Notes under the pieces: model-generated
Told to the model about the DNA's origin: nothing
Databases searched by the model: none
The model's input: the letters and a program-made list of their open reading frames with translations, nothing else
Position numbers and translations under genes: made by a program
DNA from: Mizugakiibacter sediminis
Lineage (GTDB): Bacteria; Pseudomonadota; Gammaproteobacteria; Xanthomonadales; Rhodanobacteraceae
Assembly: GCF_000953855.2 (NCBI RefSeq)
Contig: NZ_DF970239.1
Location: 4,041 to 68,040 of the forward strand
DNA length: 64,000 nucleotides
Direction of reading: 5' to 3'
Part shown: piece after piece, positions 49 to 32,871 of the stretch
How the letters are laid out: each line of letters opens with the position of its first letter
Numbering within the stretch: position 1 is the first letter of the stretch

Positions 49-170
49 TCCCGTCCGGCGCCGGGGCGAGGCGCCGTTACGCGCCGTTACACGGCGTGAC
101 CGCGCGGTGGCACGGTTGCGCGACGCCCGCGCTAGGGTGGACGCGTGGCCCCTTCCCCGAGACGCTCGTC

Positions 171-887
171 ATGACCACACGTCCTCCGATCGACCTCTCC
201 TCCGCCCGCAACCTCGCCGACGCCGCCCTGCAGCGCAGCGCGCTGGGACGCTGCCTGGCCGGCTACTCCGCGCAGACGACCCTGCACGTCGTGCGCCTGC
301 AGAAGGGCGAACACATCGTGCACGCCGGGGATCCGTTCGAATCGCTGTTCCTGCTGTCCAGCGGCTCGGCCAAGGCGGTGCGCATCGGCATCGACGGCCG
401 CGAGCAGGTGACCCGGTTCTATTTCGCCGAGGACCTGCTGGGCCTGGACGCGCTGGATGCGGAGGTGCATCCGACCTCGATCCGCGCGCTCGAGTACAGC
501 GTCGCCATCGAAGTGCCGCTGCGCCGCCTGGAGCGCATGGGCATCGACGTGCGCACGCTGAACGAGGCGCTGATCCGCAAGCTGGCGCACGAGCTCCAGC
601 ACGAGCAGATGACCATGCTGCTGCTCGGCTCGACCACCGCCGAGGAGCGCCTGGCCACGTTCCTGCTCGATCTCGGCCGGCGCTACGCGGCGCGCGGCTA
701 CTCCGGCACCGAGTACGTGCTGAAGATGACCCGCGAGGACATCGCCAGCTACCTCGGCCTCAAGCTGGAGACGATCAGCCGCGGCCTGAGCCGCTTCAAC
801 CGCGAAGGCACGGTGCAGGTGGAAGGCCGGCACATCAGCATCCGCGACCGCGAGCGGCTGGGCCGCGCCGCCGCCTGGGCGGCCTGA
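171..887 (+). CDS. CRP/FNR-family transcriptional regulator without Fe-S cysteines
   Basis: A 238-residue CRP/FNR-fold regulator. An N-terminal cyclic-nucleotide-binding-like beta barrel (about residues 25-125) is followed by a long dimer helix and a C-terminal HTH_Crp domain (about 155-225). The recognition helix carries E200, S203 and R204, the same E-x-x-S-R pattern by which E. coli FNR reads TTGAT half sites, so the many TTGA-N6-TCAA boxes in the next 31 kb are likely targets. Only one cysteine (C28) is present, so the four-cysteine 4Fe-4S sensor of FNR cannot form. It could sense through haem (Dnr-like) or another ligand, or act below another sensor. The ATG at 171 is preferred because the longer upstream reading from 96 adds low-complexity residues absent from the family. 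The gene is convergent with the kinase gene ending at 905. Confidence 0.88.
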   Translation: MTTRPPIDLSSARNLADAALQRSALGRCLAGYSAQTTLHVVRLQKGEHIVHAGDPFESLFLLSSGSAKAVRIGIDGREQVTRFYFAEDLLGLDALDAEVHPTSIRALEYSVAIEVPLRRLERMGIDVRTLNEALIRKLAHELQHEQMTMLLLGSTTAEERLATFLLDLGRRYAARGYSGTEYVLKMTREDIASYLGLKLETISRGLSRFNREGTVQVEGRHISIRDRERLGRAAAWAA

Positions 888-904: not shown

Positions 905-2950
905 TCAGTCCGCGCGCGGCCGCACCAGCGCGTCGCGCAGGGCCGTCGCGAGCTGTTCGCGGCTGAACGGCTTGGCCAGCAGGCTGGCCACGGCCGGATG
1001 ATCGCCCAGCCGTGCGCTCAGCGAGGCCGCGTAACCTGAGGTCAGCACGACCGGCAGGGAAGGGCGGCTGCGGCGCAGTTCGTCGGCGAGGTCGATGCCG
1101 TCGGCGGGGCCGCCCAGCGCCACGTCGCTGAAGACGATCGCGATGTCGGCGCGGCACGCCAGTTCCGCGCGCGCGGCGGCCACCGAATCCACGGCCGCCA
1201 CGGCGTAGCCGAGATCCTCCAGCAGCAGCGTGGTGGTCTCGCGCACCGCCTCGTCGTCCTCGACCAGCAGCACGCGCTCGCCCGCGCCGCGCGGGGCCTC
1301 GGTGCGGCTGCCCGAGACGGCGGTCCTCGCCACCGGGAAGTACAGCTTGACCACCGTGCCGAAGCCGGCCGCGCTGTGCAGCGTCAGGCAGCCGCCGATC
1401 TGGTGCATCAGCGAGCGCACCAGCACCAGGCCGAGGCCGGTGCCGCGGCCGGCTTCCTTGGTGGTGAAGAAAGGCTCGAAGGCGCGCCGCCGCACTTCCT
1501 CGGTCATGCCGCAGCCGGTATCGGCGACCGCCACCACGACGAATTCGCCGGGCGCGAACTGCGCGGCGTGCTCGGGGTCGGGCGCCGCGTCGAGCCGCAC
1601 GAACCCGGCGCCGAGGGTGAGCCGGCCGCCGTCGGGCATGGCGTCGCGCGCGTTGGTGGCGAGGTTGATGATGCAGGCATCCAGCACCGAAGGGTCGAGC
1701 GCAACCGCGGGCAGGTCGGACGGCACGTCGAGCAGCACCTCGATGCGCTCGCCGACCGCGCGCGTCACCAGTTCGGCCAGGCCCGGCAGCAATTGCTGGA
1801 TGTGGTAGGCGGCGACCTTGGCCGGCTGCTTGTGCGCCAGCATCAGCAGGCGCTTGGTCAGCTCGCCGCCGCGGCGGGTGGCGCGCAGCGCGGCGCGCAC
1901 CATCTTCTCCATCGAGGCGTTGTCCTGCAGGCGCGCGCTGAGGATCTCCAGGTTGCCGGCCATGATGCTGAGCAGGTTGTTGAACTCGTGGGCGATGCCG
2001 CTGCTCAACTGGCCGAGCGCCTCCATCTGCGCCGCCGCGACCAGCAGCTGGTCCGACTGGCTGCGCGCCAGCGCGTGCGCCAGCAGGTGGGCCACGCTCT
2101 GCGCCACGTAGATGTCGTCGCTGCCGAACCAGGCGCCGGCCGGGCGCGCGATGGTGAGCGCGCCGAGGATGCCGGTGTGCGCGCGCAGCGACAGCACCAG
2201 TTCGACGCCCTGCGCGTCGTTGTACAGCCGCATCGCCACCGCCGGCGCGGCGGTGGCGGCGGCGTCGGTTTCGTCCTGCAGCAGCGCTGCCACCTGCGGC
2301 AGCGCGGCGAGATCGACCCAGATCGGGTTGCCGTCGGCGTCGGTGTCGTAGGCCACGCGCACCAGGCGGGAGCCGCGGCCGGGGGCGAATTCGTACACGC
2401 AGATGCGGCGCGCGGCGAGCGCGTCGCGCACGCCCTGCACGGTGACGCGGCAGGCCGCGTCGAAGGACGAGCTGCGCAGCGTCTGCTCCCACATCGCCAG
2501 AAGCATTTCCTGCTGGCGCAGGCGGCGCTGGTCTTCCTCGGCGCGCAGCTTGGCGCCGATGTCGCGCACCGAGGCGATCACGTAGGCGCCGCCGCCGATC
2601 GTCACCGCGTTCAGGCTGACCTCGATCGGCACTTCCGTGCCGTCGCTGCGCAGGCCGCGCAGTTCCATGCCGATGCCCATCGGGCGGCGCTGCGGTTGCT
2701 GCATGTAGCGCCCGCGGTGCGCGCGGTGGGCGTCGGCCAGGCGCGCCGGCACCAGCGTCTCGACGGAGCGGCCACGGATGGCGTCCTCGCCGTAGCCGAA
2801 CAGTTTTTCCGCCTCGGTGTTCCAGTAGCGGATCGCGCCGCCGGCGTCGACGATCAGCATCGCGTCCGGCGCCGAGTCGAGCACCTGACGCAGCACCGCC
2901 AGGCTGCCGAACGCCTGTTCGAACGGCGTCGGCGCCGGCCGCTCGTTCAC
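905..2950 (-). CDS. Hybrid sensor histidine kinase (PAS-GAF-HisKA-HATPase-REC)
   Basis: A 681-residue soluble hybrid kinase with no membrane segment. In order it has a PAS domain (about 13-130), a GAF-like domain (about 155-305), the dimerisation helix with the phospho-acceptor histidine in AHEFNNLL (about 320), a HATPase domain with the G-rich GTGLGL motif (about 420-545) and a C-terminal receiver domain (about 560-675, starting VLLVEDDEAV). The GTG at 2950 is chosen because it overlaps the stop of the response-regulator gene (GTGA), indicating translational coupling; the upstream part of the open frame is arginine-rich non-coding-like sequence. It is presumably the partner of the OmpR-type regulator, phosphorylating it in response to a cytoplasmic redox or energy signal. 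The signal is not identifiable from sequence. Confidence 0.9.
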   Translation of the reverse strand: MNERPAPTPFEQAFGSLAVLRQVLDSAPDAMLIVDAGGAIRYWNTEAEKLFGYGEDAIRGRSVETLVPARLADAHRAHRGRYMQQPQRRPMGIGMELRGLRSDGTEVPIEVSLNAVTIGGGAYVIASVRDIGAKLRAEEDQRRLRQQEMLLAMWEQTLRSSSFDAACRVTVQGVRDALAARRICVYEFAPGRGSRLVRVAYDTDADGNPIWVDLAALPQVAALLQDETDAAATAAPAVAMRLYNDAQGVELVLSLRAHTGILGALTIARPAGAWFGSDDIYVAQSVAHLLAHALARSQSDQLLVAAAQMEALGQLSSGIAHEFNNLLSIMAGNLEILSARLQDNASMEKMVRAALRATRRGGELTKRLLMLAHKQPAKVAAYHIQQLLPGLAELVTRAVGERIEVLLDVPSDLPAVALDPSVLDACIINLATNARDAMPDGGRLTLGAGFVRLDAAPDPEHAAQFAPGEFVVVAVADTGCGMTEEVRRRAFEPFFTTKEAGRGTGLGLVLVRSLMHQIGGCLTLHSAAGFGTVVKLYFPVARTAVSGSRTEAPRGAGERVLLVEDDEAVRETTTLLLEDLGYAVAAVDSVAAARAELACRADIAIVFSDVALGGPADGIDLADELRRSRPSLPVVLTSGYAASLSARLGDHPAVASLLAKPFSREQLATALRDALVRPRAD

Positions 2951-3684
2951 GGCACGCGCTCGACCGCGGCGGAGAACCAGTAGCCCTGGCCGCGCACGGT
3001 CTTGATCAGTTGCGGGGCGGCGGCGTCGGTCTCGATCTTGCGGCGCAGGCGGCCGATCTGCATGTCGACGCTGCGGTCGAACGGACCGCCGTCGCGGCCG
3101 CGCGTCCATTCGAGGATCTGGTCGCGCGAGAGCAGACGGTTGGGGTGGTACAGGAACATCTCCAGCATCTGCAGTTCGCCGCTGGTTAGCTCCACGGTCG
3201 TGCCTTCGCGCGTCTGCAGGCGGCGCTGGCGCGGATAGAACACGTAGCCGCCGAAGCGCAGGCTGGGCTCGTCCGCCGCCGCGTGCGCCTGCCGCGAACG
3301 CCGCAGCACCGAGCGCGCGCGGGCGTGCAGCTCGGCCAGCTCGAATGGCTTGGTGACGTAGTCGTCGGCGCCGAGCTCCAGCGCCAGCACCTTGTCGACG
3401 GTGGCGGCGCGGCCGCTGAGGATGATGAGCGGCGTGGTCGTGGTGCGGCGCAACTCGCGCGCGAGGTCGATGCCGTCCTCGCCCGGCAGGCCGAGGTCGA
3501 GCATCACCAGGTCGACGCGGTGCTCGGCCAGGATGCGGCGCAGGTCCGTGCCGGAGTGGCCGCCGATCACGCGCATCCGGCGTTCGGCGAAGTACGTCTC
3601 GACCAGTTCGACGATTTCCACTTCGTCGTCGATGACGACGACGATCGGCGCCGATTCGGTAGCTGGGTCGTCAGGGCCTCTCAT
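2947..3684 (-). CDS. OmpR-family response regulator
   Basis: A 245-residue response regulator with an N-terminal receiver domain (acidic pair in VVVIDDE, phospho-acceptor Asp in VMLDLGLPG, conserved Lys in YVTKPF) and a C-terminal winged helix (about residues 145-240, ending with the GYWF signature typical of OmpR/PhoB proteins). The start at 3684 is preferred over one at 3726 because a GGGAGA ribosome site lies just upstream. The gene overlaps the hybrid kinase gene by 4 bases. It lies 59 bases downstream of the universal stress protein gene on the same strand, so all three may be transcribed from the FNR-type promoter at 4291-4304. Target genes are unknown. Confidence 0.9.
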   Translation of the reverse strand: MRGPDDPATESAPIVVVIDDEVEIVELVETYFAERRMRVIGGHSGTDLRRILAEHRVDLVMLDLGLPGEDGIDLARELRRTTTTPLIILSGRAATVDKVLALELGADDYVTKPFELAELHARARSVLRRSRQAHAAADEPSLRFGGYVFYPRQRRLQTREGTTVELTSGELQMLEMFLYHPNRLLSRDQILEWTRGRDGGPFDRSVDMQIGRLRRKIETDAAAPQLIKTVRGQGYWFSAAVERVP

Positions 3685-3743: not shown

Positions 3744-4226
3744 CTAACCAGTCCAGGCTGGCGCCGCGGCCGGCTCCGCCGCGGCGCCGACGACCAGCAC
3801 GGGGATGCTGCCGCGCACCAGCGTCGAGGCCGTCTCGCGGCCGGGCGGGACGCGGCCGCCGCGTTCGTCCCGGCCGCCGCCCAGGACGATCAGGTCGCAG
3901 GCGTCCCGCTGCGCCTGCAGCAGCAGCGCCTGGTGCGGCTCGGCGGCGAACTCCAGCACGGTGCGGCAGGGCACGCCGCGCGCCTCGGCGGCGTCGGTCA
4001 GCGCCGCGACCTCGCGCTGCGCGGCGGCCAGGATGGCCGATTCGTAGGCGTTGCGCGAAGGCAGGTCGCGCATCTCCTTCGTGCCGGCGAACACGCGCTC
4101 GTACGTGGCCAGCACCTGCATCACGGTGAGCGCGCCGCCGAGGCGGACGGCCATTTCCAGCGCCGTGCCGAAGCCGCGCCGCGACGATTCGGAGCCGTCG
4201 AAACCCACCAGGATGTGCTTGAACAT
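3744..4226 (-). CDS. Universal stress protein (UspA family)
   Basis: A 160-residue single-domain Usp protein beginning MFKHILVGFDGSESS, the usual UspA start with the nucleotide-contacting Asp after the first strand. The C-terminal half has the D-L-I-V-L-G-G-G segment and ends with IPVLVVG. The canonical G-x2-G-x9-G-S/T loop is altered (DERGGRVPPGRETAS), so ATP binding is uncertain. It is the first gene of a probable usp-response regulator-kinase unit. Its promoter would be the FNR-type box at 4291-4304 with -10-like TAAGGT at 4269-4264. Usp proteins of this kind are hallmarks of FNR/Anr and DosR hypoxia regulons. No clear ribosome site precedes the ATG. Confidence 0.9.
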   Translation of the reverse strand: MFKHILVGFDGSESSRRGFGTALEMAVRLGGALTVMQVLATYERVFAGTKEMRDLPSRNAYESAILAAAQREVAALTDAAEARGVPCRTVLEFAAEPHQALLLQAQRDACDLIVLGGGRDERGGRVPPGRETASTLVRGSIPVLVVGAAAEPAAAPAWTG

Positions 4227-4290: not shown

Positions 4291-4304
4291 TTGATGCAGG
4301 TCAA
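4291..4304 (-). promoter_or_regulatory. FNR/Anr-type box 2 (usp side)
   Basis: TTGATGCAGGTCAA. A -10-like TAAGGT on the minus strand starts at 4269, 22 bases beyond the box. The usp ATG is at 4226, so the box would be centred near -41 of a transcript with a leader of about 30 bases. It shares the divergent spacer with box 3. Confidence 0.75.
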
Positions 4305-4394: not shown

Positions 4395-7079
4395 ATGCAG
4401 ACCACGCGACCCGCCGGCGCGGGACGATCGGCGCTGTCCGCGCTGCTGGAACCGCGGGCGATCGCCGTCGTCGGCGCCTCGGCGCGGGAAGGGGCGGTCG
4501 GCGCGGCCGTCTACCGCAACCTCGTCGCCGGCGATTACGCCGGCGACGTGTTTGCGGTCAACCCGCGCCGCGCCGAGCTGTCCGGCCGGCCCTGCTTTCC
4601 CTCGCTGCAAGCGCTGCCGCGCCCCGTCGACCTCGCCGTGATCGCGGTGCCGGCGGATGCGGTGGAGCAGGTGGTCGGCGACTGCGTGCGCGCGCGCATT
4701 CCCGCCGCGGCCGTGCTGAGCGGCGGCTTCGCCGAGAGCGACGACAGCGGCCGCGAACGGCAGGCGCGCGTGCTGCGCATCGCGCGCGAGGGCGGCGTGC
4801 GCCTGCTCGGCCCGAACAGCTTCGGCGTGGTGCGGCCGCACGTCGGCCTGAACGCGACCTTCGCGGTGGCGCGGCCGCAGCCCGGCGGGCTGGCGCTGGT
4901 GACGCAGTCGGGCGCGCTGTGCGCGGCGATGATGGACTGGGCCGAGGGCGGGCGCGTCGGCATGTCGGCGGCGGTGGCGCTGGGCGCCGCGGCGGACATC
5001 GGTTTCGGCGAGGTCGTCGACTACCTGGCCGACGACCCTTTCACGCGCGCGATCGTGCTCTACGTCGAGGGCGTCAACGACGCGCGCCGCTTCGTCTCCG
5101 CGCTGCGCCGCGCGGCGTGCATCAAGCCGGTGGTGGCGATGAAGGCGGGCCGCCATGCCGAAGGCGAGCGCGCGATCGGCTCGCACACCGCGGCGCTGCT
5201 CGGCGACGACGCCGTGTTCGACGCCGCGCTGCGCCGTTGCGGCGTGCCGCGCCTGCGCTCGCTGGCCGAACTGTACGCTGCGGCCGGCGCGCTGGCGCTG
5301 CTGGACCTGCCGGCCGGCCACCGTTTCGTCGTGGTCAGCAACGGCGGCGGTCCGGCCGCGCTGGCCGCCGACGCGGCGCGCGACTATGGCGTGGCGCTGG
5401 CGGAGCTGTCGCCGGAAACGCAGCGCGCGCTGCGCCGGCGTCTGCCGGCCGCCGCCGCCGTGGCCAATCCGGTCGACGTGCTGGGCGACGCCGGCGCCGA
5501 ACGCTTCGCCGCCGCGCTGGACACGGTGCTGGCCGACCCGGCGGTCGACGGCGCGGCTGCGCTGTACGTGCCGCTGCGCGGCGACGACCCCGCCGAGATC
5601 GCCGACGTGCTGGCCGACGCCGGCGCGCATCACGCCAAGCCGGTGGTCGGCGCCTGGCTGGGCGACGCCCACGTCGCCGCCGCGCACGAGCGCTGCAAGG
5701 CGCTGGGCGTGGCGCACGTGCGCCAGCCGGAGGAGGCAATCGCGGCGCTGGCCGCGCTGGCGGCGTTCGCGCGGCCGCGGCGCGAATCCGCGGCGCCGGC
5801 GGAAGCGGCGGAAACGCCGCCGCGGCCGGACCTCGGCGCCGCGCTCGCCATCCGCCAGCGCGCGCTGGCGGAGGAGCGCACGCAGCTCTACACGCACGAG
5901 GCGCACGCGCTGCTGGCCGCGTTCGGCATCGCCACGCCGCCGTGCGCCTCGGCGACGACCGCCGATGAGGCGGTGCAAGCGGCGCGCGCGCTGGGCTATC
6001 CGGTCGCGCTCAAGCTCGAGTCGCCCGACGTGGTGCACAAGAGCGACGTCGGCGGCGTGCGGCTGAACCTCGCCGACGCGGACGCGGTGCGCGGCGCTTT
6101 CGCGCGCCTGCTGGCGATCTCCACGTCCGCGGCGCCGGAACCGCGCATCGCCGGCGTGATGGTGCAGCCGATGTTGCGCCTCGCGCACGCGCGCGAGCTG
6201 ATGGCCGGCGTGGCCACCGACCCCGCCTTCGGCCGCGTGCTCTGCTTCGGCGCCGGCGGCGTGGCGGTGGAGCAGTTGCGCGACGTCGCCTTCGCGCTGC
6301 CGCCGCTGGACCGGCGCGCCGCCGCCGACCTGGTCGAGCGCACGCGCGTCGCCGCGCTGCTGCGCGCCTACCGCAACGAGCCGGCGGTCGAGCGCGAAGC
6401 GCTGGTGGAGATGCTGCTGCGGCTGTCCGACCTGGTCTGCGCGTTGCCGTGGGTGCGCGAGCTCGACATCAACCCGCTGGTGGCCGCTGCGCAGGGCTGC
6501 ATCGCGCTGGACGCGCGCGTGGTGATCGATCCGGGCGCGCCGACCGCGACCGCCGGCTATCCGCACCTGGCCGTGCACCCGTATCCGCACGACTGGTCGC
6601 GCGAGGTGACGCTGGGCGACGGCACGCGCTGCCTGTTGCGGCCGCTGCGGCCGCAGGACCTGCCGGCGGCGCGCGCGCTGCTCGAGGCCGGCCCCGAGCG
6701 CGACTGGCTGCCCGCCGACGGCGAGCGCCTGTGGAGCTGCCCGCGCGCGATCGACTACGCGCGCGACATGGGCTTCGTGCTGCTGCCGCACGGCGCGGAC
6801 GCGCCGGCCGGGGTCGCCCGCTACGCGTTCGGCGCGACGGCGGGCACGGCCGGCTTCGCGCTGGCGGTGGCCGCCGACTGGCGGCGCCGCGGCGCCTCGC
6901 GCGCGCTGCTCGACGTGCTGCGCGATTACGCCGCCGCCCATGGCTGCGCGCGCCTGATCGGCCACGTCGACGCCGGCGATGCCGCGGCATTGCGCTGGGC
7001 GGAACGCATGGGCGCCGAGGTGGCGGTGCCGGCGGACACCGCGGCAGCGGCCGCGCAGGTGGCGTTCGCCACCCGTTGA
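4395..7079 (+). CDS. ADP-forming acyl-CoA synthetase fused to GNAT domain (Pat-like or acetate-forming)
   Basis: An 894-residue protein with a CoA-binding domain (about 15-140), succinyl-CoA-ligase-like domain (about 150-300), ATP-grasp domain (about 480-700) and a C-terminal GNAT acetyltransferase domain (about 735-890, with RRRGAS near the acetyl-CoA loop). The layout is that of the Pat/PatZ lysine acetyltransferases, whose synthetase half is regarded as catalytically dead, and also of active ADP-forming acyl-CoA synthetases. The phospho-histidine position is kept here (H264 in IGSHTAALLG), so the synthetase could be active and make acetate plus ATP from acetyl-CoA. A ribosome site GAGGAG precedes the ATG at 4395. 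The upstream FNR consensus box and the neighbouring fermentation genes favour an anaerobic ATP-yielding or acetylation-control role. Confidence 0.85.
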   Translation: MQTTRPAGAGRSALSALLEPRAIAVVGASAREGAVGAAVYRNLVAGDYAGDVFAVNPRRAELSGRPCFPSLQALPRPVDLAVIAVPADAVEQVVGDCVRARIPAAAVLSGGFAESDDSGRERQARVLRIAREGGVRLLGPNSFGVVRPHVGLNATFAVARPQPGGLALVTQSGALCAAMMDWAEGGRVGMSAAVALGAAADIGFGEVVDYLADDPFTRAIVLYVEGVNDARRFVSALRRAACIKPVVAMKAGRHAEGERAIGSHTAALLGDDAVFDAALRRCGVPRLRSLAELYAAAGALALLDLPAGHRFVVVSNGGGPAALAADAARDYGVALAELSPETQRALRRRLPAAAAVANPVDVLGDAGAERFAAALDTVLADPAVDGAAALYVPLRGDDPAEIADVLADAGAHHAKPVVGAWLGDAHVAAAHERCKALGVAHVRQPEEAIAALAALAAFARPRRESAAPAEAAETPPRPDLGAALAIRQRALAEERTQLYTHEAHALLAAFGIATPPCASATTADEAVQAARALGYPVALKLESPDVVHKSDVGGVRLNLADADAVRGAFARLLAISTSAAPEPRIAGVMVQPMLRLAHARELMAGVATDPAFGRVLCFGAGGVAVEQLRDVAFALPPLDRRAAADLVERTRVAALLRAYRNEPAVEREALVEMLLRLSDLVCALPWVRELDINPLVAAAQGCIALDARVVIDPGAPTATAGYPHLAVHPYPHDWSREVTLGDGTRCLLRPLRPQDLPAARALLEAGPERDWLPADGERLWSCPRAIDYARDMGFVLLPHGADAPAGVARYAFGATAGTAGFALAVAADWRRRGASRALLDVLRDYAAAHGCARLIGHVDAGDAAALRWAERMGAEVAVPADTAAAAAQVAFATR

Positions 7080-7099: not shown

Positions 7100-7543
7100 T
7101 CAGCGCAGCGCCCGCTCGCCGATGTGCACGCGGATCTGCTCGGGCGTCATCGCGGTGAGGTTGCGCCGCACTTCGGCGACCACGTGGCTGCGCACGTTCT
7201 TGCCCAACGCGCCGTGCAGCGCGCCGAGGAAGCGCGGCGGCGCCACCAGCACCAGCTGGTCGTACCGGTGCTGCACGCGCCCCTGTTCCAGCGCGTCGTG
7301 CAGGCGGCGCGCAAAGCGCTCGGCGTACTTCGTCTCCGGCGTGGTGTGCGGCTCGATCGCGTGGCGCGCGCCGCCGACGCTCTCGATGCTGCGCGTCGGC
7401 CGCATGTCGCCGCGCGAGCCCGCCGGATCGCGCCCCTCGGGATTGACGAAAGCCTCGACCTCGTTCAGCGCGGCATTGCCGCTTTCGAGCTCGAACAGCC
7501 GCGCGCGTACGCGATCGGCGACCAGGACCCATGTCTTGCCCAT
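7100..7543 (-). CDS. Host-attachment-protein family protein (COG5622-like)
   Basis: A 147-residue protein starting MGKTWVLVADRVRARLFE, matching the bacterial family annotated as protein required for attachment to host cells. That family is related to the eRF1/Rok-like release-factor fold and its molecular role here is unknown. The family core V-L-V-A-D-x-x-R-A-R-L-F and the C-terminal segment P-P-R-F-L-G-x-L are present. The start at 7543 is chosen over an in-frame ATG at 7552 because the GAGG ribosome site lies at a suitable distance only for the inner start. It is the second gene after the SDR gene on the same strand (37-base gap), so it is probably expressed from the FNR-type promoter at 8405-8418. 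In this setting the attachment name should not be taken literally. Confidence 0.75.
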   Translation of the reverse strand: MGKTWVLVADRVRARLFELESGNAALNEVEAFVNPEGRDPAGSRGDMRPTRSIESVGGARHAIEPHTTPETKYAERFARRLHDALEQGRVQHRYDQLVLVAPPRFLGALHGALGKNVRSHVVAEVRRNLTAMTPEQIRVHIGERALR

Positions 7544-8404: not shown

Positions 8405-8418
8405 TTGACGTGCATCAA
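8405..8418. promoter_or_regulatory. FNR/Anr-type box 4
   Basis: TTGACGTGCATCAA, between the divergent SDR gene (start 8351) and the phosphoribosyltransferase-hydrolase gene (start near 8530). On the minus strand TACGCT starts at 8383, exactly 22 bases beyond the box. On the plus strand only a weaker TGTGCT (8441-8446) is seen, so leftward activation is better supported. Confidence 0.75.
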
Positions 8419-8529: not shown

Positions 8530-9819
8530 ATGCCACAACTGCCCTATCGCGATCGCGTCGACGCGGCGCAGCAGCTCGCCGCGGCGTTGTCGGCGTACCG
8601 CGGCCGCCATCCGCTGGTGCTGGCCATCCCGCGCGGCGCGGTGCCGATGGGACGCGTGCTCGCCGATGCGCTGGGCGGCGACCTCGACGTCGTGCTGGTG
8701 CACAAGCTGGGTGCGCCCGGCAATCCCGAGTTCGCGGTGGGCGCGATCGACGAGCGCGGCTCGGTGTGGCTGGCGCCGCATGCCGCGAGCGCCGGCGCCG
8801 ACGCCGCCTACGTCGAGCGCGAGAGCGCGCGCCGGCTGGCGCAGATCCGCGAACGCCGGCAGCGCTGGCGCGGCGGCGCGCCGTCGCTGGATGCGGCGGG
8901 GCGCACGGCGATCGTCGTCGACGACGGGCTGGCGACCGGCGCGACCATGGCGGCCGCGCTGCGCGCGGTGCGCGCGCAGGGGCCGGCGCGCCTGGTCTGC
9001 GCCGTGCCGGTGGCCGCGCGCGACAGCCTGGCGCGGGTCGAGCCGCTGGCCGACGAGGTGGTGTGCCTGGCGACGCCGCTGGACTTCTATGCCGTCGGCG
9101 CCTTCTACCGGCACTTCCCGCCGGTGGACGACGCCGAGGTGGCCGCGCTGCTGGGCGCGTCGCCGGCCGCGTCGGCGTCCGGCGAACGCGCCGTGCGCGT
9201 TCCCGCCGACGGCGTCGTGCTCGAAGGCGACCTGCGCGTGCCGGCGCTGCCGCGCGGCCTGGTGCTGTTCGCGCACGGCAGCGGCAGCGGGCGGCACAGC
9301 CCGCGCAACCGCAGCGTCGCCGAGGCGCTGCACGCCGCCGGCATCGCCACGCTGCTGCTCGACCTGCTGACGGTGGACGAAGACCGCCAACGCGCGATGC
9401 GCTTCGACATCCCGCTGCTGACCGCGCGCCTGGGCGCGACGCTGGCGTGGGCGCGCGCGGAACCGCCGCTGCGGGCGCTGCCGCTGGGCCTGTTCGGCGC
9501 GAGCACCGGCGCGGCGGCGGCGCTGGCGACCGCGGCCGCGCATCCCGAGGCGGTCGCCGCCGTGGTCTCGCGCGGCGGCCGGCCGGATCTCGCCGGCGCG
9601 GAGGTGTTGGCCGCGGTGCGCGCGCCGACGCTGCTGATCGTCGGCGGCGCCGACGCCGAAGTGCTGGCGCTCAACCGCGAGGCGCTGGCGCGGCTGCGCG
9701 CGCCCGCCGAACTGATCGTCGTGCCCGGCGCCACGCACCTGTTCGAGGAGCCCGGCGCGCTGGCGCAGGTGGCGCGGCAGGCGGCGGCCTGGTTCGGGCG
9801 CTGGTTCGCGCCGTCATGA
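8530..9819 (+). CDS. Phosphoribosyltransferase-alpha/beta hydrolase fusion
   Basis: A 429-residue two-domain protein. The N-terminal half (about 1-205) is a type I phosphoribosyltransferase-like domain with the PRPP motif VVDDGLATGATM. The C-terminal half (about 215-425) is a dienelactone-hydrolase-like alpha/beta hydrolase with nucleophile elbow GASTG and a late catalytic-His candidate in GATHLFEEPG. The same fusion is known from hypoxia loci, including Rv0571c of the mycobacterial DosR regulon; its reaction is not established. The start at 8530 is preferred (GGAAC upstream); in-frame ATGs at 8503 and 8518 are possible. It lies divergent to the SDR gene and shares the FNR-type box region. 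It is convergent with the flavodoxin gene. Confidence 0.85.
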   Translation: MPQLPYRDRVDAAQQLAAALSAYRGRHPLVLAIPRGAVPMGRVLADALGGDLDVVLVHKLGAPGNPEFAVGAIDERGSVWLAPHAASAGADAAYVERESARRLAQIRERRQRWRGGAPSLDAAGRTAIVVDDGLATGATMAAALRAVRAQGPARLVCAVPVAARDSLARVEPLADEVVCLATPLDFYAVGAFYRHFPPVDDAEVAALLGASPAASASGERAVRVPADGVVLEGDLRVPALPRGLVLFAHGSGSGRHSPRNRSVAEALHAAGIATLLLDLLTVDEDRQRAMRFDIPLLTARLGATLAWARAEPPLRALPLGLFGASTGAAAALATAAAHPEAVAAVVSRGGRPDLAGAEVLAAVRAPTLLIVGGADAEVLALNREALARLRAPAELIVVPGATHLFEEPGALAQVARQAAAWFGRWFAPS

Positions 9820-9845
9820 GCGCGGCCGTGCGGCGGCCGCAGGCG

Positions 9846-10379
9846 TCACGGGTGCACGGAGCCCGCGGCGGCGCCGTGCGCATGCAGGAACGACGGCGCG
9901 ACGAACGCGGCCGCGCGCAGGAAACCGGCGAGATGCTCCAGGGTGCGGTAATGCGTCTGCTCGGCGATCTCGCGGTCGGCGAACGCCGCCTGCGTCACCG
10001 GCGCCATGTCCAGCGCCTCGCTCATGTCCTCGAACGCATGCTGGGCGCCGCGCCCGCCCATGGTGCAGAAGAAGGCGGCGCGGCGGATGCGCCCGCGGTT
10101 CGCCTGCAGGTAGCTGCGCACGGGGCTGGAGACGCGGCCGAACCACACCGGCGTGCCGATCACCACCAGGTCGTACTTCGACGGATCGTGGCGCGGCGTC
10201 AGCAGCGGCGGCAACGCCTCGCGGCGCGCTTCCAGCGCCGAGCGCAGCCAGCCGCGCACGCCGCGGCGGGACGCGGCTTCCTCGATCGGCGAGAGGTCGG
10301 CGTCGAGCCGCACGGCCAGCGACTCGGCCAGGCTGCGGGTGATGCCGGTCCGACTGTAGTAGACAACCAGGATGCGCAT
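9846..10379 (-). CDS. Flavodoxin-family protein
   Basis: A 177-residue flavodoxin-like protein. The FMN phosphate loop is in YYSRTGITRSLA near the N terminus and the second FMN-contact region in VVIGTPVWFGRVSSPVRSYL. It resembles flavodoxin_4/protoporphyrinogen-oxidase-like proteins. The length is close to single-domain flavodoxins, so it probably shuttles electrons or reduces small molecules rather than being a full reductase. The ATG at 10379 is chosen because it begins the flavodoxin first strand; the longer in-frame extension to 10445 would run into the FNR-type box. The box at 10437-10450 with GAGGAT (10415-10410) is the likely promoter. Confidence 0.85.
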   Translation of the reverse strand: MRILVVYYSRTGITRSLAESLAVRLDADLSPIEEAASRRGVRGWLRSALEARREALPPLLTPRHDPSKYDLVVIGTPVWFGRVSSPVRSYLQANRGRIRRAAFFCTMGGRGAQHAFEDMSEALDMAPVTQAAFADREIAEQTHYRTLEHLAGFLRAAAFVAPSFLHAHGAAAGSVHP

Positions 10380-10436
10380 CGTGGCGGCCCTCCGTGGGGA
10401 TGCGCCTGCATCCTCGCGCGCGGCGCCCGCGGCGGC

Positions 10437-10450
10437 TTGACGCACGTCAA
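10437..10450. promoter_or_regulatory. FNR/Anr-type box 5
   Basis: TTGACGCACGTCAA, in the divergent spacer between the flavodoxin gene (ATG 10379) and the P-type ATPase gene (GTG 10487). GAGGAT starts at 10415 on the minus strand, 22 bases beyond the box. No -10-like hexamer is seen at that distance on the plus strand, where the ATPase start is only 36 bases away. Confidence 0.7.
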
Positions 10451-10486
10451 CGATGCGCGCGGCGCCGCGCGGAAGGGCGGCCGCGC

Positions 10487-13051
10487 GTGAACGACGCCCG
10501 CGAGGATCCGCGCGCGGCGGCGGTCGCCGCGCCGATCGCCGCGGCGTGGAGCGCGCTGGCGTCGACGCCGCAGGGGCTCGACAGCGCCGAGGCCGAGCGC
10601 CGCCTCGCGCGCCACGGGCCCAACGAGGCCGCGCCGCGGCGGCGCGGCGCGGCGGCGCTGGCGCTGCTCGCGTTCCTCGGCAATCCGCTGGTGCTGATCC
10701 TGCTGCTGGCCGCCGCCGTCTCGGCGCTGCTGCGCGAGTTCGCCGAGGCGGCGATCATCGCGGTGATCGTCGCGCTGAGCGTGCTGCTGAATTTCTTCCT
10801 GAGCTACCGCTCGCAGCGCGCCGCGGAGCGGCTGCGCGAGGAGATCGCGCCGACGGCCTGCGTGCGCCGCGACGGCGCATGGCGCGAGCTGCCGCGGCAC
10901 CGGCTGGTGCCGGGCGACGTGATCCGCCTCGGCGCCGGCGACCGCGTGCCGGCCGACGCGCGGCTGTTCGACGCGCGCGGGCTGTACGTGCAGCAGGCGG
11001 CGCTGACCGGCGAATCGGCGCCGGCCGAGAAGGCGCCGGCGGACGCGCCGCCGCCGACGACCGCGCTGGCGGAGGCGCGCCACGTGGTGCTGCTCGGCAC
11101 CTCGGTGGTGGTCGGCACCGCGCAGGCGGTGGTGTTCGCCACCGGCCGCGCCACCGCCTTCGGCGACGTCGCCGAGCTGTTGTCGGCACGCCCGCCCGAG
11201 ACCGAGTTCGAGCGCGGTCTGGTGCGCTTCGCCGGCCTGATCATGCGCACGGTGGTGTTCCTCGTGCTGGCCACGCTGCTGATCGCGCTGGCGCGCGGCC
11301 GCGAGCCGTTCGAATCGCTGATGTTCGCCGTGGCGCTGGCGGTGGGGCTGACGCCGGAATTCCTGCCGATGATCGTTACCGTGACGCTGGCGCGTGGCGC
11401 CGTGCGCATGGCGCGGCGGCGGGTGATCGTCAAGCACCTGGCGGCGATCGAGGACTTCGGCAGCATGCAGCTGCTGCTGTGCGACAAGACCGCGACGCTG
11501 ACCACCGGCGAGATGCGCGTGGAGGAGGGACTGGACATCGACGGCCACGCCGCGAGGCGGCCGCTGGAGTTCGCCTATCTGAACAGCCTGTACGAGAGCG
11601 GCATCCGCAGCCCGTTCGACGCCGCGATCCTCGCCCACGGCGACGTGGCCGGGGCGGAAGGTTACGGCAAGGTCGACGAGATTCCGTTCGACTTCGAACG
11701 GCGCCGGCTGTCGGTGGTCGCCGCGCGCGCCGGCGCGCGCATCCTGGTGACCAAGGGCGCGCCCGCCCACGTGCTGGCGTGCTGCACGGCCTGCGAGCGC
11801 GGCGACCGCCGCGAGCCGCTGGACGAAGCGCTGCGCGCGCGCTGCCTGCGCCTCGCCGAGGACTGCGGCAGGCGCGGTCTGCGCGTGCTGGCGGTGGCGT
11901 GGCGCGACGTGCCGGCGCAGCCCGCGTACCGCGTCGAGGACGAGACCGGGCTGGTGTTCGCCGGCTTCGTCACCTTCGCCGACCCGCTGGTGCCGGGCAT
12001 CGCGGCGACGCTGGCGGCGCTGCGCCGCGACGGCGTGCAGGTGAAGATCCTCAGCGGCGACGACGCGCCGCTGGTGCAGCGCGTGTGCGAGCAGGTCGGG
12101 CTGGGCACGCAGCCGGCGGTGACCGGCGTCGAGGTCGACCGCCTGGGCGACGCCGCGCTCGGCCGCGCGGCCGAGCGCGCGACGGCGTTCGCGCGCGTGT
12201 CGCCGGCGCAGAAGCACCGCATCCTGCTGGCGCTGAAGGCGCGTCGTCACGTCATCGGCTTCCTCGGCGACGGCGTCAACGACGCGCCCTCGCTGCACGC
12301 CGCCGATGTCGGCATCTCCGTGGCCAACGCGGTGGACGTGGCCAAGGACAGCGCCGACATCGTGCTGCGCGAGCGCGACCTCGGCGTGCTGCACGACGGC
12401 GTGCTGGAAGGCCGTCGCGCCTTCGCCAACGTGATGAAGTACCTGCTGATGGCGACCAGCTCCAACTTCGGCAACATGGCCAGCATGGCGGCCGGCATGC
12501 TGTTCCTGCCGTTCCTGCCGATGACGCCGGTACAGATCCTGCTGAACAACTTCCTCTACGACATCGCGCAGGCCACGCTGCCCACCGATACCGTCGACGC
12601 CAGCGCGATCCGCCGGCCGCAGCGCTGGAACGTCGCGCAGATCCGCAACTTCATGCTGGCGATCGGCCCGATCAGCTCGCTGTACGACTTCCTGACCTTC
12701 TACGTGCTGCTGGCGGTGTTCGGCGCCTCGGCGCCGCTGTTCCAGAGCGGCTGGTTCGTCGAGTCGCTGACCACGCAAACGCTGGTGGTGTTCGTGATCC
12801 GCACGCTGGGCAAGGCGCGGCGCAGCCGGCCCGGCACGCCGCTGATCCTGGCCAGCGCCGCGGTGGTGTGCCTCGCCTGGCTGCTGCCGCTGACGCCGCT
12901 GGCGCCGGCGCTCGGCTTCGTGCGGCCGCCGGCCGGCTACTACGCGTTCGTCGCCGCCGCCGCGGCGACCTACCTCGCGCTGGTCGCCGCCGTGCACCGG
13001 CGCGTACTGGCGTGGCGCGTGCCTGCGCGGCGCCGGCGCTGGCGCCCGTGA
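10487..13051 (+). CDS. mgtA: MgtA-like P-type ATPase with DKTATLT motif
   Basis: An 854-residue P3B-type ATPase. It has an N-terminal cation-ATPase domain, membrane pairs at about 57-80 and 88-106, the actuator motif TGES (174-177), membrane pair 4 with VGLTPEFLPMIVT, the phosphorylation site D333 and the hinge motif GDGVNDAPS, followed by six C-terminal membrane segments. The segment around TM4 (LARGAVRMARRRVIVKHLAAIEDFG, described in parts: V-I-V-K-H-L-A-A-I) is typical of the Mg2+ importers MgtA/MgtB. The phosphorylation motif reads DKTATLT instead of DKTGTLT (A336 for Gly). The GTG at 10487 has GGAAGG upstream. Being in an FNR-type island suggests Mg2+ or ion supply under anoxia. Substrate assignment is by family only. 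Confidence 0.88.
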   Translation: MNDAREDPRAAAVAAPIAAAWSALASTPQGLDSAEAERRLARHGPNEAAPRRRGAAALALLAFLGNPLVLILLLAAAVSALLREFAEAAIIAVIVALSVLLNFFLSYRSQRAAERLREEIAPTACVRRDGAWRELPRHRLVPGDVIRLGAGDRVPADARLFDARGLYVQQAALTGESAPAEKAPADAPPPTTALAEARHVVLLGTSVVVGTAQAVVFATGRATAFGDVAELLSARPPETEFERGLVRFAGLIMRTVVFLVLATLLIALARGREPFESLMFAVALAVGLTPEFLPMIVTVTLARGAVRMARRRVIVKHLAAIEDFGSMQLLLCDKTATLTTGEMRVEEGLDIDGHAARRPLEFAYLNSLYESGIRSPFDAAILAHGDVAGAEGYGKVDEIPFDFERRRLSVVAARAGARILVTKGAPAHVLACCTACERGDRREPLDEALRARCLRLAEDCGRRGLRVLAVAWRDVPAQPAYRVEDETGLVFAGFVTFADPLVPGIAATLAALRRDGVQVKILSGDDAPLVQRVCEQVGLGTQPAVTGVEVDRLGDAALGRAAERATAFARVSPAQKHRILLALKARRHVIGFLGDGVNDAPSLHAADVGISVANAVDVAKDSADIVLRERDLGVLHDGVLEGRRAFANVMKYLLMATSSNFGNMASMAAGMLFLPFLPMTPVQILLNNFLYDIAQATLPTDTVDASAIRRPQRWNVAQIRNFMLAIGPISSLYDFLTFYVLLAVFGASAPLFQSGWFVESLTTQTLVVFVIRTLGKARRSRPGTPLILASAAVVCLAWLLPLTPLAPALGFVRPPAGYYAFVAAAAATYLALVAAVHRRVLAWRVPARRRRWRP

Positions 13052-13053
13052 TC

Positions 13054-13067
13054 TTGACGGGCATCAA
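13054..13067 (+). promoter_or_regulatory. FNR/Anr-type box 6
   Basis: TTGACGGGCATCAA, only a few bases after the ATPase stop. TAGCCT at 13089-13094 starts 22 bases beyond the box, and the aldolase/phosphatase ATG follows at 13134. This gives the gene its own promoter despite lying directly behind mgtA on the same strand. Confidence 0.78.
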
Positions 13068-13133: not shown

Positions 13134-14270
13134 ATGAAAACGACGCTCAGCGTGATCAAGGCCGACATCGGCTCGATCGGCGGCCACATCCGGCCGTCGC
13201 AGGCATTGCTGGACGCGGTGCGCTCGCGCATCCACGCCCATCGCGGCAACCATCTGCTGATCGACGCGCGGGTCAGCGCCACCGGCGACGACATCGCCAT
13301 CCTGATGACGCACCGCCACGGCGTCGGCGATCCGGCGGTGCACAAGCTGGCCTGGGACGCCTTCCGCGGCGGCACCGACGTCGCCCGCCGCCAGGGCCTG
13401 TACGGCGCCGGCCAGGACCTGCTGAAGGACGCGTTCTCCGGCAACGTGCGCGGCATGGGACCGGCGGTGGCCGAGATGGAGTTCGAGGAGCGCCCGGCCG
13501 AACCGTTCCTGTTCTTCGCCGCCGACAAGACCGATCCCGGCGCGTTCAACCTGCCGCTGTACCTCGCGTTCGCCGATCCGATGAACACGCCCGGCCTGTT
13601 GCTTTCGCCGGAGCTGTCGCAGGGCTTCCGCTTCGTGATCATGGACGTCGGCCACACCGAGGGCGACCGCGTGATCGAACTGAACGCGCCCGAGGACATG
13701 TACCGCATCGCCGCGCTGCTGCGCGACACCGAGCGCTACGTGGTCGAGTCGGTGTGGTCGCGCGCCACCGGCGAGCAGGCGGTGGCGGCGTGCACCACGC
13801 GCCTGCACAACATCGCCGGCAAGTACACCGGCAAGGACGACCCGGTGATGCTGGTGCGCGTGCAGAAGAATTTCCCCGCCACCGGCGAGGTGCTGGCGCC
13901 CTACGCGATCGGCGCGCTGGTCGCCGGCGGCATGCGCGGCTCGCACAACATGCCGCTGATGCCGGTGCCGCAGGAGTCCGGCGTCAGCTATTTCGACGGA
14001 CCGCCGGTGGTGAGCTGCGCGGCGTTGTGCATGCACGACGGCCGCCTGACCGAGGCCGAGGACGCGTTCGCGCATCCGTTCTGGGACCGCGTGCGCGACC
14101 AGGTGGCGGCGAAGGCGATCGAGCTGCGCCGCCAGGGCTTCTTCGGCGCGGCGATGCTGCCGATGGCCGAGCTCGAGTACACCGGCGTCACCGCGATGCT
14201 GGCCGAGCTGGAGCCGCGCTTCAGGCTGCGCGAGGAAGCGCGGCCGCAGGTGGCGATGCGCGCCGGGTGA
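13134..14270 (+). CDS. fbp: Archaeal-type fructose-1,6-bisphosphate aldolase/phosphatase
   Basis: A 378-residue member of the FBP aldolase/phosphatase family (PF01950, class V FBPase). That family makes fructose 6-phosphate from dihydroxyacetone phosphate and glyceraldehyde 3-phosphate in one irreversible two-step reaction. The start MKTTLSVIKADIGSIGGH, the segment DLLKDAFSGNVRGMGP, and the GKYTGKDDP loop match archaeal enzymes; Y231 and K234 correspond to the catalytic Tyr and Schiff-base Lys of the characterised proteins. Multiple metal-binding Asp and His residues (D11, H18, D52, D53, D131) are kept. It has its own FNR-type promoter. Most gammaproteobacteria use type I/II FBPases and separate aldolases, so acquisition by transfer is plausible. 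Placed with phosphoketolase, transaldolase and acetate kinase, it would close a redox-neutral carbon cycle. Confidence 0.93.
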   Translation: MKTTLSVIKADIGSIGGHIRPSQALLDAVRSRIHAHRGNHLLIDARVSATGDDIAILMTHRHGVGDPAVHKLAWDAFRGGTDVARRQGLYGAGQDLLKDAFSGNVRGMGPAVAEMEFEERPAEPFLFFAADKTDPGAFNLPLYLAFADPMNTPGLLLSPELSQGFRFVIMDVGHTEGDRVIELNAPEDMYRIAALLRDTERYVVESVWSRATGEQAVAACTTRLHNIAGKYTGKDDPVMLVRVQKNFPATGEVLAPYAIGALVAGGMRGSHNMPLMPVPQESGVSYFDGPPVVSCAALCMHDGRLTEAEDAFAHPFWDRVRDQVAAKAIELRRQGFFGAAMLPMAELEYTGVTAMLAELEPRFRLREEARPQVAMRAG

Positions 14271-14277
14271 GGATGCC

Positions 14278-17094
<2,817 letters not shown>

Positions 17095-17137: not shown

Positions 17138-17151
17138 TTGACGCACGTCAA
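17138..17151 (-). promoter_or_regulatory. FNR/Anr-type box 7
   Basis: TTGACGCACGTCAA, identical to box 5. TTAGCA starts at 17116 on the minus strand, 22 bases beyond the box, before the acyl-AMP ligase ATG at 17094. The plus-strand side leads only into a decayed permease fragment. Confidence 0.75.
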
Positions 17152-17247: not shown

Positions 17248-17586
17248 GGCGGCATCGCCAGCATGAACATCATGTTGGTTTCGGTCACCGAGCGTACGCG
17301 CGAGATCGGCGTGCGCGTCGCGATCGGTGCGCGCCGGCGCGACCTCCTGATGCAGTTCCTGCTCGAGGCGGTGACGCTTTCGGTGGCGGGTTGCCTGGCC
17401 GGTGCGCTCGTCGGCGCGGCGGCGGCGGTCGCGGTCAACCTGGTCGCGGGCATGACGATGGTCGTCGGCCTGGTTGCGGTCGCGGCGGCGTTCCTGATCG
17501 CCTCCCTGCTGGGCGTGTTCTTCGGGCTGTATCCGGCGCGGCGAGCATCCAGGCTGGAGCCGATCGAGGCGCCGGCTTATCGGTAG
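17248..17586 (+). pseudogene. C-terminal fragment of a MacB/FtsX-type ABC permease
   Basis: About 112 codons in one frame encode the last part of a MacB-like permease. The cytoplasmic motif MNIMLVSVTERTREIG is followed by V-R-V-A-I-G-A-R-R-R-D and two hydrophobic segments, ending with F-G-L-Y-P-A-R-R-A-S and a stop at 17584-17586. Complete MacB proteins are around 650 residues and the matching upstream exporter sequence is absent; the preceding sequence is the acyl-AMP ligase promoter. The fragment therefore looks like a remnant left by insertion of the island genes or by deletion. It has no convincing start or ribosome site. Confidence 0.72.
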
Positions 17587-17605: not shown

Positions 17606-17619
17606 TTGATGCAGGTCAA
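17606..17619 (+). promoter_or_regulatory. FNR/Anr-type box 8
   Basis: TTGATGCAGGTCAA, identical to box 2. TAGCCT starts at 17642, 23 bases beyond the box. The OmpA-like lipoprotein gene begins at 17744, implying a leader of about 90 bases. Confidence 0.78.
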
Positions 17620-17743: not shown

Positions 17744-18352
17744 ATGGCCAGCAAAGCGTTCCGGTTCGTGATTGTTCCGTTAAGCCTCGCGGCAATCGCA
17801 CTCGGCGGCTGCGCACAGTACGTCAAGAAAACGGATTTCGACGCCGCCATCGCCGAGCTGCGGGCCAACGACCAGAAGCAGCAGCAGCAGATCGACGCGC
17901 TGACGCAGGAGATGCGGCAGAAGTTCGCGCAGTACGACGCCAAGATCGCCGAGATGGGCGGCCGCGTGCGCGTCGACGCGATCGCGCACTTCGCCTTCAA
18001 CGACGCGACGCTGCGCGACCAGGACAAGCCGCTGCTCGACGACTTCGCCAAGGTCGTCGGCGGCCGCTATCCGAACGCCGTCGTCACCGTGGAAGGTTTC
18101 GCCGATCCGGCCGGTTCGGCGGGCTACAACCTGCGCCTCGGCATGAAGCGCGCGCAGGCCGTGCGCGACTATCTGGTGAACACCGGCGGCATGTCCGCGG
18201 ACAAGGTGCGCACCGTCAGCTACGGCGAGGCGGTCAGCCGCCAGGTCGATCGCGGCAAGACGCACGACGAGGGCGAGAACAATCGCCGCGTCACGCTGGT
18301 GGTCGATTTCGCCGGCGCGTCGTCCGGCAGCGCCGCGCCGGCCGCACCGTAA
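17744..18352 (+). CDS. OmpA-family lipoprotein
   Basis: A 202-residue lipoprotein. The signal peptide ends in a lipobox with C23 (ALGGC), then comes a Q/K-rich coiled-coil stretch (about 35-75) and an OmpA/MotB peptidoglycan-binding domain (about 85-195) with the usual N-L-R-L-G-x-x-R-A-x-A-V-x-x-Y-L segment and N-x-R-V-x-L-V. It should sit in the outer membrane and hold peptidoglycan, in the manner of Pal or YiaD. The ATG at 17744 is preceded by GAGGAGA (17731-17737); longer in-frame starts would mask the signal peptide. It has its own FNR-type promoter, suggesting envelope stabilisation under the same condition as the fermentation genes. Confidence 0.88.
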   Translation: MASKAFRFVIVPLSLAAIALGGCAQYVKKTDFDAAIAELRANDQKQQQQIDALTQEMRQKFAQYDAKIAEMGGRVRVDAIAHFAFNDATLRDQDKPLLDDFAKVVGGRYPNAVVTVEGFADPAGSAGYNLRLGMKRAQAVRDYLVNTGGMSADKVRTVSYGEAVSRQVDRGKTHDEGENNRRVTLVVDFAGASSGSAAPAAP

Positions 18353-18494: not shown

Positions 18495-18508
18495 TTGACC
18501 GAAATCAA
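18495..18508 (+). promoter_or_regulatory. FNR/Anr-type box 9
   Basis: TTGACCGAAATCAA. TAGCGT at 18530-18535 starts 22 bases beyond the box. The phosphoketolase GTG start is at 18598. Confidence 0.78.
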
Positions 18509-21013: not shown

Positions 21014-21027
21014 TTGACAGCGATCAA
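21014..21027 (+). promoter_or_regulatory. FNR/Anr-type box 10
   Basis: TTGACAGCGATCAA, 22 bases after the phosphoketolase stop. TACGGT at 21049-21054 starts 22 bases beyond the box. The first gene behind it is the DUF2934 gene at 21084, followed by tal, glgP and ackA. Confidence 0.78.
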
Positions 21028-22514: not shown

Positions 22515-22564
22515 GGCGGCGTGCGGCGTCGCCGCGGCGTCCGCGCAGCGCCTAGGACGGCGCC

Positions 22565-25075: not shown

Positions 25076-25091
25076 GCGGCGGAGGCGGCCC

Positions 25092-31456: not shown

Positions 31457-31470
31457 TTGACCGCGGTCAA
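31457..31470 (-). promoter_or_regulatory. FNR/Anr-type box 11
   Basis: TTGACCGCGGTCAA, a perfect 14-base palindrome. On the minus strand GACGCT starts at 31435, 22 bases beyond the box, and the acs ATG is at 31400. It is the rightmost box found; none was noticed in the remaining half of the window. Confidence 0.75.

Positions 31471-31494: not shown

Positions 31495-32871
<1,377 letters not shown>

Follow-up and report, generated by a model that had tools for sequence, protein, structure and literature searches.

The 64,000-nucleotide stretch of Mizugakiibacter sediminis DNA that was analysed as a whole (the window) encodes P0001, an FNR-type regulator without an iron-sulphur cluster, and the neighbouring DNA strongly suggests that this protein is turned on at low oxygen by a sensor-relay pair of the kind found in root-nodule bacteria. 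Low oxygen would be passed on by an hFixL-like kinase and an FxkR-like regulator to a K-box operator, and the cluster-less FNR produced from it would activate a gene island; on the sequence data, a probability of about 0.8 was assigned to this reading. The gene order, the domains, the candidate haem ligands, the likeness to FxkR, the K-box, the FNR boxes, the missing cluster ligands and the existence of a true FNR elsewhere in the genome were all read directly, and the adjoining two-component system together with the K-box would explain how an FNR without a sensor can be oxygen-controlled. A sequence-only reading of the same DNA, which overlooked the kinase-regulator pair and the K-box, had looked for the signal in NO, haem or a ligand bound by P0001 itself, which is probably wrong. 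The kinase, regulator and fnr genes are called the module here, and their positions are given in Table 1.

Table 1. Positions in the window of the module genes, the elements of the fnr promoter and the FNR boxes, with gene calls from our own gene-finder script.
Feature	Position	Strand	Remark
FNR-type box TTGAGATGGATCAA	35..48	+	ahead of the fnr gene itself
K-box	76..100	+	GTTAC 76-80, GTTAC 86-90, GTGAC 96-100; 10-bp period
Cluster-less FNR-type regulator P0001	171..887	+	238 aa; complete ORF, ATG to TGA
Hybrid sensor kinase, hFixL-like	905..2950	-	PAS-HisKA-HATPase-REC; domain order of hFixL type
PAS domain of the kinase	2546..2908	-	residues 15-135
OmpR-type response regulator, FxkR-like	2947..3684	-	Response_reg and Trans_reg_C (Pfam)
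Universal stress protein (Usp), presumed target	3744..4226	-	Pfam
FNR box	4291..4304		between Usp gene and CoA-ligase/GNAT gene (4395-7079)
FNR box TTGATCGCCATCAA	4327..4340		between Usp gene and CoA-ligase/GNAT gene
FNR box	8405..8418		between short-chain dehydrogenase-like gene (by eye) and phosphoribosyltransferase-hydrolase gene
FNR box	10437..10450		between flavodoxin gene and P-type ATPase gene
FNR box	13054..13067		before FBPase_3 gene (13134-14270)
FNR box	17138..17151		between AMP-binding/acyltransferase gene (14278-17094) and short ORF
FNR box	17606..17619		before OmpA-family gene (17744-18352)
FNR box	18495..18508		before phosphoketolase gene (18598-20991)
FNR box	21014..21027		before transaldolase-phosphorylase-acetate kinase genes (21366-26267)
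FNR box	31457..31470		before AMP-binding/dehydrogenase genes, - strand (31400-26278)

The identity of P0001 was examined using family models, structures and the translated open reading frame. Pfam placed cNMP_binding, HTH_Crp_2 and Crp on the protein, each above its cut-off, and the top NCBIfam match, Fnr (PRK11161), scored 179 bits, short of its cut-off of 228. The best sequence match in the PDB was the FNR of A. fischeri with 142 bits, followed at a distance by FixK2 with 93 bits. The same A. fischeri FNR gave the best superposition on the AlphaFold model of P0001 (mean pLDDT 85, Z about 27), in which two helices, residues 9-22 and 24-33, occupy the place of the FNR cluster loop. P0001 has E200, T201, S203 and R204 in its recognition helix, where E. 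coli FNR has E209, S212 and R213, and instead of the four cysteine ligands of FNR (CX2-3CX5-7C plus the fourth; C20, C23, C29 and C122 in E. coli) it has a single cysteine, C28. The sequence-only reading had described an FNR-type DNA reader with recognition residues E200, S203 and R204 and one cysteine in all, and the translation agrees with it on each count. The same pattern runs through the module FNRs: the glutamate and the arginine of the E..SR helix are present in 32/32, with serine or threonine at the third position, and the AR3-type loop (a glycine with an arginine next to it) is retained in all of them. The position of the fourth cysteine is tryptophan, leucine, isoleucine or valine, cysteine being found in 0/32, and the CxxCx5C motif is present in 0/31, since the one such string, in L217, precedes the start codon.

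Among the matches listed, P0001 belongs to seven orthologues, the other six being 63-92% identical to it, which come from the genus of the window, the Dyella group and Oleiagrimonas. The seven share no invariant cysteine, and C28 is missing from the four Dyella-group members. For want of conservation, C28 was ruled out as a redox switch like C183 in FixK2. Their only invariant histidine, H100, is nearly invariant in the four-cysteine relatives as well. These observations bear on whether P0001 might itself sense haem or NO in the way of Dnr, or a small molecule in its cNMP-type pocket, with the two-component genes as mere neighbours. Effector binding is frequent among CRP/FNR proteins, the two helices of the model lie where the cluster loop used to be, and the acid retained at the position of D154 (see below) hints that dimer formation may still be under control. 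Against this, the conserved residues that could serve as ligands come down to an H100 that cluster-bearing relatives share, and the linkage to the kinase and the K-box are conserved across genera. Dnr, the NO regulator of Pseudomonas that reads FNR-like sites, resembles P0001 in being a cluster-less CRP/FNR protein but matches it with 51 bits only, compared with 142 for FNR; no nir or nor genes were recognised in the gene list of the window, and so none in the island beside P0001, and an NO-reductase-like gene lies on contig C33 next to the true FNR instead. Sensing by P0001 itself was therefore considered distinctly unlikely, and the Dnr-like mechanism put forward in the sequence-only reading is not supported.

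The PAS domain of the neighbouring kinase carries a histidine and a methionine, H75 and M91, that are invariant in 6/6 module kinases. By alignment and residue spacing H75 is in register with the proximal haem histidine of FixL and FG214, equivalent to H196 of hFixL and H156 of FG214, and M91 is at the register of FG214 M172. FG214 is described as a haem PAS protein with His156 as proximal ligand and with His156-Met172 coordination in one crystal form (PMC13060918). Searching the PDB with the window PAS domain gave 14 sequence matches (E up to 0.01), and all 14 were haem PAS domains, of FixL, DosP and FG214 (entry 10jx). The PAS domain shares 46 of 133 residues with that of R. etli hFixL in an ungapped alignment, and kinase and receiver together are 40% identical to hFixL over 396 aa. 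The similarity of the core was dropped as proof of kinship with hFixL because it is unspecific: when hFixL was compared with the whole genome, another hybrid kinase on contig C9 was closer to it in the core (392 bits against 251 for the window kinase). The C9 kinase had no PAS match, and the window PAS domain was the best PAS match. The distal arginine of FixL (R220, with H200 as the haem histidine, in FixL numbering; R216 in hFixL) is absent from 6/6 module PAS domains, the window kinase having M95, which leaves room for a ligand or a redox chemistry other than that of FixL.

The response regulator was compared with FxkR9, the R. leguminosarum pRL9 protein that lies beside fixK9b (PMC7888657) and that was used as the query. 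Over the whole genome the regulator of the window came first with 192.6 bits, and the next OmpR-type protein followed with 112.6 bits.

The operator of FxkR, the K-box, has been given as GTTACA-N4-GTTACA (PMC7888657, PMC4999443). Positions 76-91 of the window read GTTACGCGCCGTTACA, which is one mismatch from the published site and lies 95 bp ahead of the fnr ATG; within the 64 kb, GTTAC-N5-GTTAC occurs at the fnr promoter only. Allowing up to two mismatches, the whole genome held 8 sites, with a single mismatch only at 76-91 and on contig C26. The C26 site (G000:C26:7961-7976; L229 2962-2977) is 28 bp upstream of an unrelated-looking 357-aa ORF on the minus strand (L229 1861-2934); it may have arisen by chance, or the regulator may have another target there.

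A K-box with at most two mismatches was found in 29/31 module fnr promoters, 10 of them with a perfect site, compared with 2/82 promoters of four-cysteine fnr genes. In 27 of the 29 it falls between -90 and -117 relative to the ATG, in most cases accompanied by a third repeat, and the fixKf, fixK9a and fixK9b genes of rhizobia, read likewise, have theirs at -101, -101 and -103. Shuffled sequences gave 0.1/31 and the reversed pattern 0/31. The difference between the two promoter sets has a Fisher p of 3e-22, which overstates independence since the genomes are related and their kinship was not corrected for. The starts of the module genes were picked by eye and those of the 82 four-cysteine genes by rule, as the nearest ATG or GTG ahead of the first cysteine; one of the 31 promoters (L221) spans 108 bp only, and two loci from outside the order, G490 and G359, are within the count. 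Perfect K-boxes were present at 16 sites in 15/119 relative genomes, 11 at module fnr promoters and 5 elsewhere, 4 of the latter in genomes without the module. The best sites of the Variovorax-type loci have 4 (G490), 3 (G359) and 4 (Variovorax) mismatches, so that the operator may have diverged there.

The distribution of the module was surveyed with a profile built from six module kinases, which found 32 full-length copies in 31/119 relatives and, in one further genome (G026), a match to the core only. The regulator adjoins 31 of the 32 kinases and an FNR-type gene 29. In G065 the kinase-regulator pair lies at the end of one contig and an FNR gene with a K-box at the start of another, apparently a contig split. 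At each of the five named orthologue loci the hybrid PAS kinase and the OmpR-type regulator adjoin the cysteine-less fnr, the fnr gene being convergent to the pair in the genus of the window and in Oleiagrimonas and divergent in the Dyella group. No module kinase was found near 75 loci from outside the clade (L053-L127), 74 of them with four cysteines; at L116 a related regulator lies about 8 kb away. In a phylum sample of 398 genomes the matches listed added two loci, those of G490 and G359, at which the module is complete, and the other kinase matches among them were almost all to the core; one weak full-length match, in G283, had nothing interpretable in its flanks. A plasmid of Variovorax boronicumulans has the three genes in the same convergent arrangement, flanked by Usp genes.

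The two-component system might instead control something else, its linkage to fnr being historical. The kinase and regulator of L230 (G098:C63) have no fnr beside them and lie near a Usp gene, and the second kinase copy of G014 (L231, G014:C12) stands alone among box-carrying genes. This explanation was judged very improbable given the FNR-type gene beside 29 of the 32 kinases, the FxkR-like nature of the regulator and a GTTAC-N5-GTTAC site that the window holds at the fnr promoter alone.

The fnr promoter has a second potential input. An exact FNR box lies upstream of the K-box, at -122 to -188, in 14/31 module fnr promoters including that of the window, three further promoters have a box with one mismatch at -116 to -135, and the reversed pattern was found in 0/31. 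These sites fit autoregulation or activation by the four-cysteine FNR, comparable with the cross-talk between FixK and FnrN described for R. leguminosarum (PMC7888657). Taken further, the boxes could mean that P0001 does no more than amplify the true FNR through box 35-48, in which case the two-component system would be unneeded. Exact boxes are, however, missing from 17/31 promoters, among them those of the four Dyella-group loci and of Oleiagrimonas, all five of which have a K-box, and the conserved linkage of kinase and regulator would be left unexplained. Pure amplification thus appears unlikely, and the FNR box is probably an added layer of control rather than an alternative to the relay.

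The window contains 11 exact TTGA-N6-TCAA boxes compared with a mean of 0.09 in shuffled sequences, which upholds the earlier placing of P0001 at the edge of a box-rich island. Each of the 11 falls between genes; for ten of them the distance to the gene that follows is 43-132 bp, measured from the box centre to the start codon, and the eleventh (21014) is 345 bp ahead of its gene. Over the whole genome 33 such boxes were counted, compared with 9 matches to the reversed pattern. Among the families that Pfam recognised in the island are Usp, flavodoxin, phosphoketolase, transaldolase, acetate kinase and P-type ATPase. Elsewhere in the genome boxes also precede genes identified by eye as ccoN, universal stress protein, cytochrome c peroxidase, alcohol dehydrogenase and small heat-shock protein; where an ORF had no Pfam call, names such as hemN, qNOR, ccoN and small heat-shock protein, among others, are presumptive. 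One 14-mer, TTGATGCAGGTCAA, occurs at four places before different genes, at 4291 and 17606 in the window and at G000:C62:1436 and G000:C111:6731, so that in some boxes conservation extends to the inner six bases. The number of boxes per genome was tried as a tracker of the P0001 orthologue and failed, genomes with the orthologue having 27-57 boxes and many others at least as many.

Three further genes of the island were recorded. Behind the box at 17138 lies a short ORF (17263-17586) that by eye resembles the C-terminal part of a permease of MacB/FtsX type and is probably a gene remnant. A PAS-GAF-GGDEF diguanylate cyclase (31495-32871, Pfam) marks the far edge and could possibly link c-di-GMP to low oxygen. 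Within the island, 7100-7543 encodes a Host_attach/baeRF protein (Pfam), and genes that by eye resemble homologues of it adjoin the module in the Dyella loci and in L170.

The sequence-only reading had suggested searching the genome for a four-cysteine FNR or Anr, and one was found on contig C33 (G000:C33:2954-3715), with the motif CTTCAFSASC and the fourth cysteine. Its neighbours, identified by eye, are hemN and a quinol-NO-reductase-like gene; it is 36% identical to P0001 and presumably reads the same boxes. The 75 comparison loci outside the clade encode proteins of 37-48% identity from Ferrovum, Burkholderia, Cupriavidus, Pseudomonas and others, some of their flanks stopping at contig ends, and a CxxCx5C-type motif is present in 74 of them. 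The exception, L108 of Cupriavidus necator A5-1, has near 9815-10627 an FNR-type gene with neither the cluster motif nor a kinase-regulator pair nearby and is a separate loss of the cluster. Trees placed the P0001 clade on a long stem among the four-cysteine FNRs, apart from FixK; both trees were built with a reduced set of near-identical Burkholderia rows, and in one of them four module rows that were incomplete at locus edges were swapped for full copies. A single clade of module FNRs and FixK was rejected (AU p 0.024), and tree and AU test together rule out the descent of P0001 from FixK. For the module FNRs alone the AU p was 0.29, a value that neither establishes a single origin nor rejects it.

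The feature that leaves most room for a surprise is the acidic residue at position 154. An acid there is described as opposing dimers of E. coli FNR when the cluster is absent, and D154A relieves the effect (PMC5934665); PDB entry 9qlt bears a title naming dimeric apo-D154A FNR. The equivalent residue is E145 in P0001 and aspartate or glutamate in 31/32 module FNRs, compared with alanine in 4/4 FixK proteins, so that constitutive activity is not assured. Either the new helices at the N-terminus or some other contact hold the dimer together, or its formation remains under regulation, or P0001 pairs with the true FNR. That a cluster-free member of the superfamily can activate transcription is known from FixK2, which was active in vitro at 0.5 uM (PMC9104804).

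P0001 may, as a heterodimer subunit or a blocker of boxes, mainly pair with or compete against the four-cysteine FNR that the same genome encodes. The FNR-type dimer helix is kept in the module FNRs, position 151 being hydrophobic in 32/32 beside the acid at 154, and in Herbaspirillum seropedicae an interaction of Fnr1 with Fnr3 has been taken as indicative of heterodimers (PMC5934665). The AR3-type loop in every module FNR is what would be expected of an activator, and an identity of 36% between the two proteins also speaks against a partnership; as the main role of P0001 it was considered rather unlikely.

In the relay favoured here, the hybrid kinase would sense oxygen or redox state with its FixL-type, putatively haem-binding PAS domain and phosphorylate the adjoining OmpR-type regulator. 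The regulator would bind the K-box, a site that is present in the sequence and conserved, and activate fnr. P0001 would be active without an Fe-S cluster and would thus be controlled by its amount, binding TTGA-N6-TCAA to activate the island and probably also the ccoN, Usp and small-heat-shock genes whose sites are seen elsewhere. The four-cysteine FNR, presumably reading the same boxes at lower oxygen, would make the response a two-stage one, and it could feed back on fnr through box 35-48. A wider proposal, which we hold to be evenly balanced, is that hFixL, FxkR and K-box form a portable oxygen front end that was coupled outside rhizobia, independently of FixK and possibly repeatedly, to FNRs that then lost the cluster; with the dimer helix kept, such readers may pair with a true FNR, which would bring mild and severe oxygen limitation together at the same boxes. 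The favoured relay would explain how a non-sensing FNR is controlled in many Xanthomonadales and some Burkholderiales, would extend a relay so far described for Rhizobiaceae to two further proteobacterial classes, and would be a natural repeat of an FNR handing sensing to a two-component system and losing its cluster. The K-box makes the input of the regulon predictable from sequence.

When the system was compared with known regulators, P0001 was found to be like FNR/Anr in sequence, fold, recognition helix, acid at 154 and target boxes and unlike them in having none of the four cluster ligands. The FixLJ-FixK system of Burkholderia dolosa is alike in that, when oxygen is low, a two-component oxygen system switches on a gene of FNR type, while its FixJ differs from the module regulator in its LuxR-type DNA-binding domain, as described (PMC5234846). 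The four-cysteine FNRs of the Burkholderia loci among those compared, which are possible counterparts of B. dolosa fixK, are not accompanied by a module kinase. By description, which is the basis of this comparison, the island also resembles a cluster of Usp and other genes that is raised at low oxygen and has BCAM0049 as its proposed regulator; BCAM0049 is encoded outside its cluster, whereas P0001 is at the island. A search of the open-licence PMC literature, which was not exhaustive, found no hFixL-FxkR-type system outside the Alphaproteobacteria.

The closest parallel is the relay of R. etli and R. leguminosarum, for which the order hFixL-FxkR-FixK, the K-box and a co-existing FnrN are described (PMC7888657). 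By gene layout and K-box P0001 resembles FixK in being a CRP/FNR protein that lacks a cluster and is encoded next to a two-component system of FixL type. Both systems have a hybrid kinase of haem-PAS type, an OmpR-type regulator, a K-box about 100 bp before the start of the cluster-less gene, TTGA-N6-TCAA targets and a separate Fe-S FNR in the same genome. The module differs in its occurrence in Gamma- and Betaproteobacteria, usually as one compact and often convergent three-gene block, and in presumed targets that form an island of stress and fermentation-type genes in place of the rhizobial fix genes. Its reader is FNR-derived, with aspartate or glutamate where FixK has Ala154, and its PAS domain is without the distal arginine of FixL. 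Judged from their sequences, the sensor pair and the operator look like those of the hFixL-FxkR kind, while the reader is not FixK.
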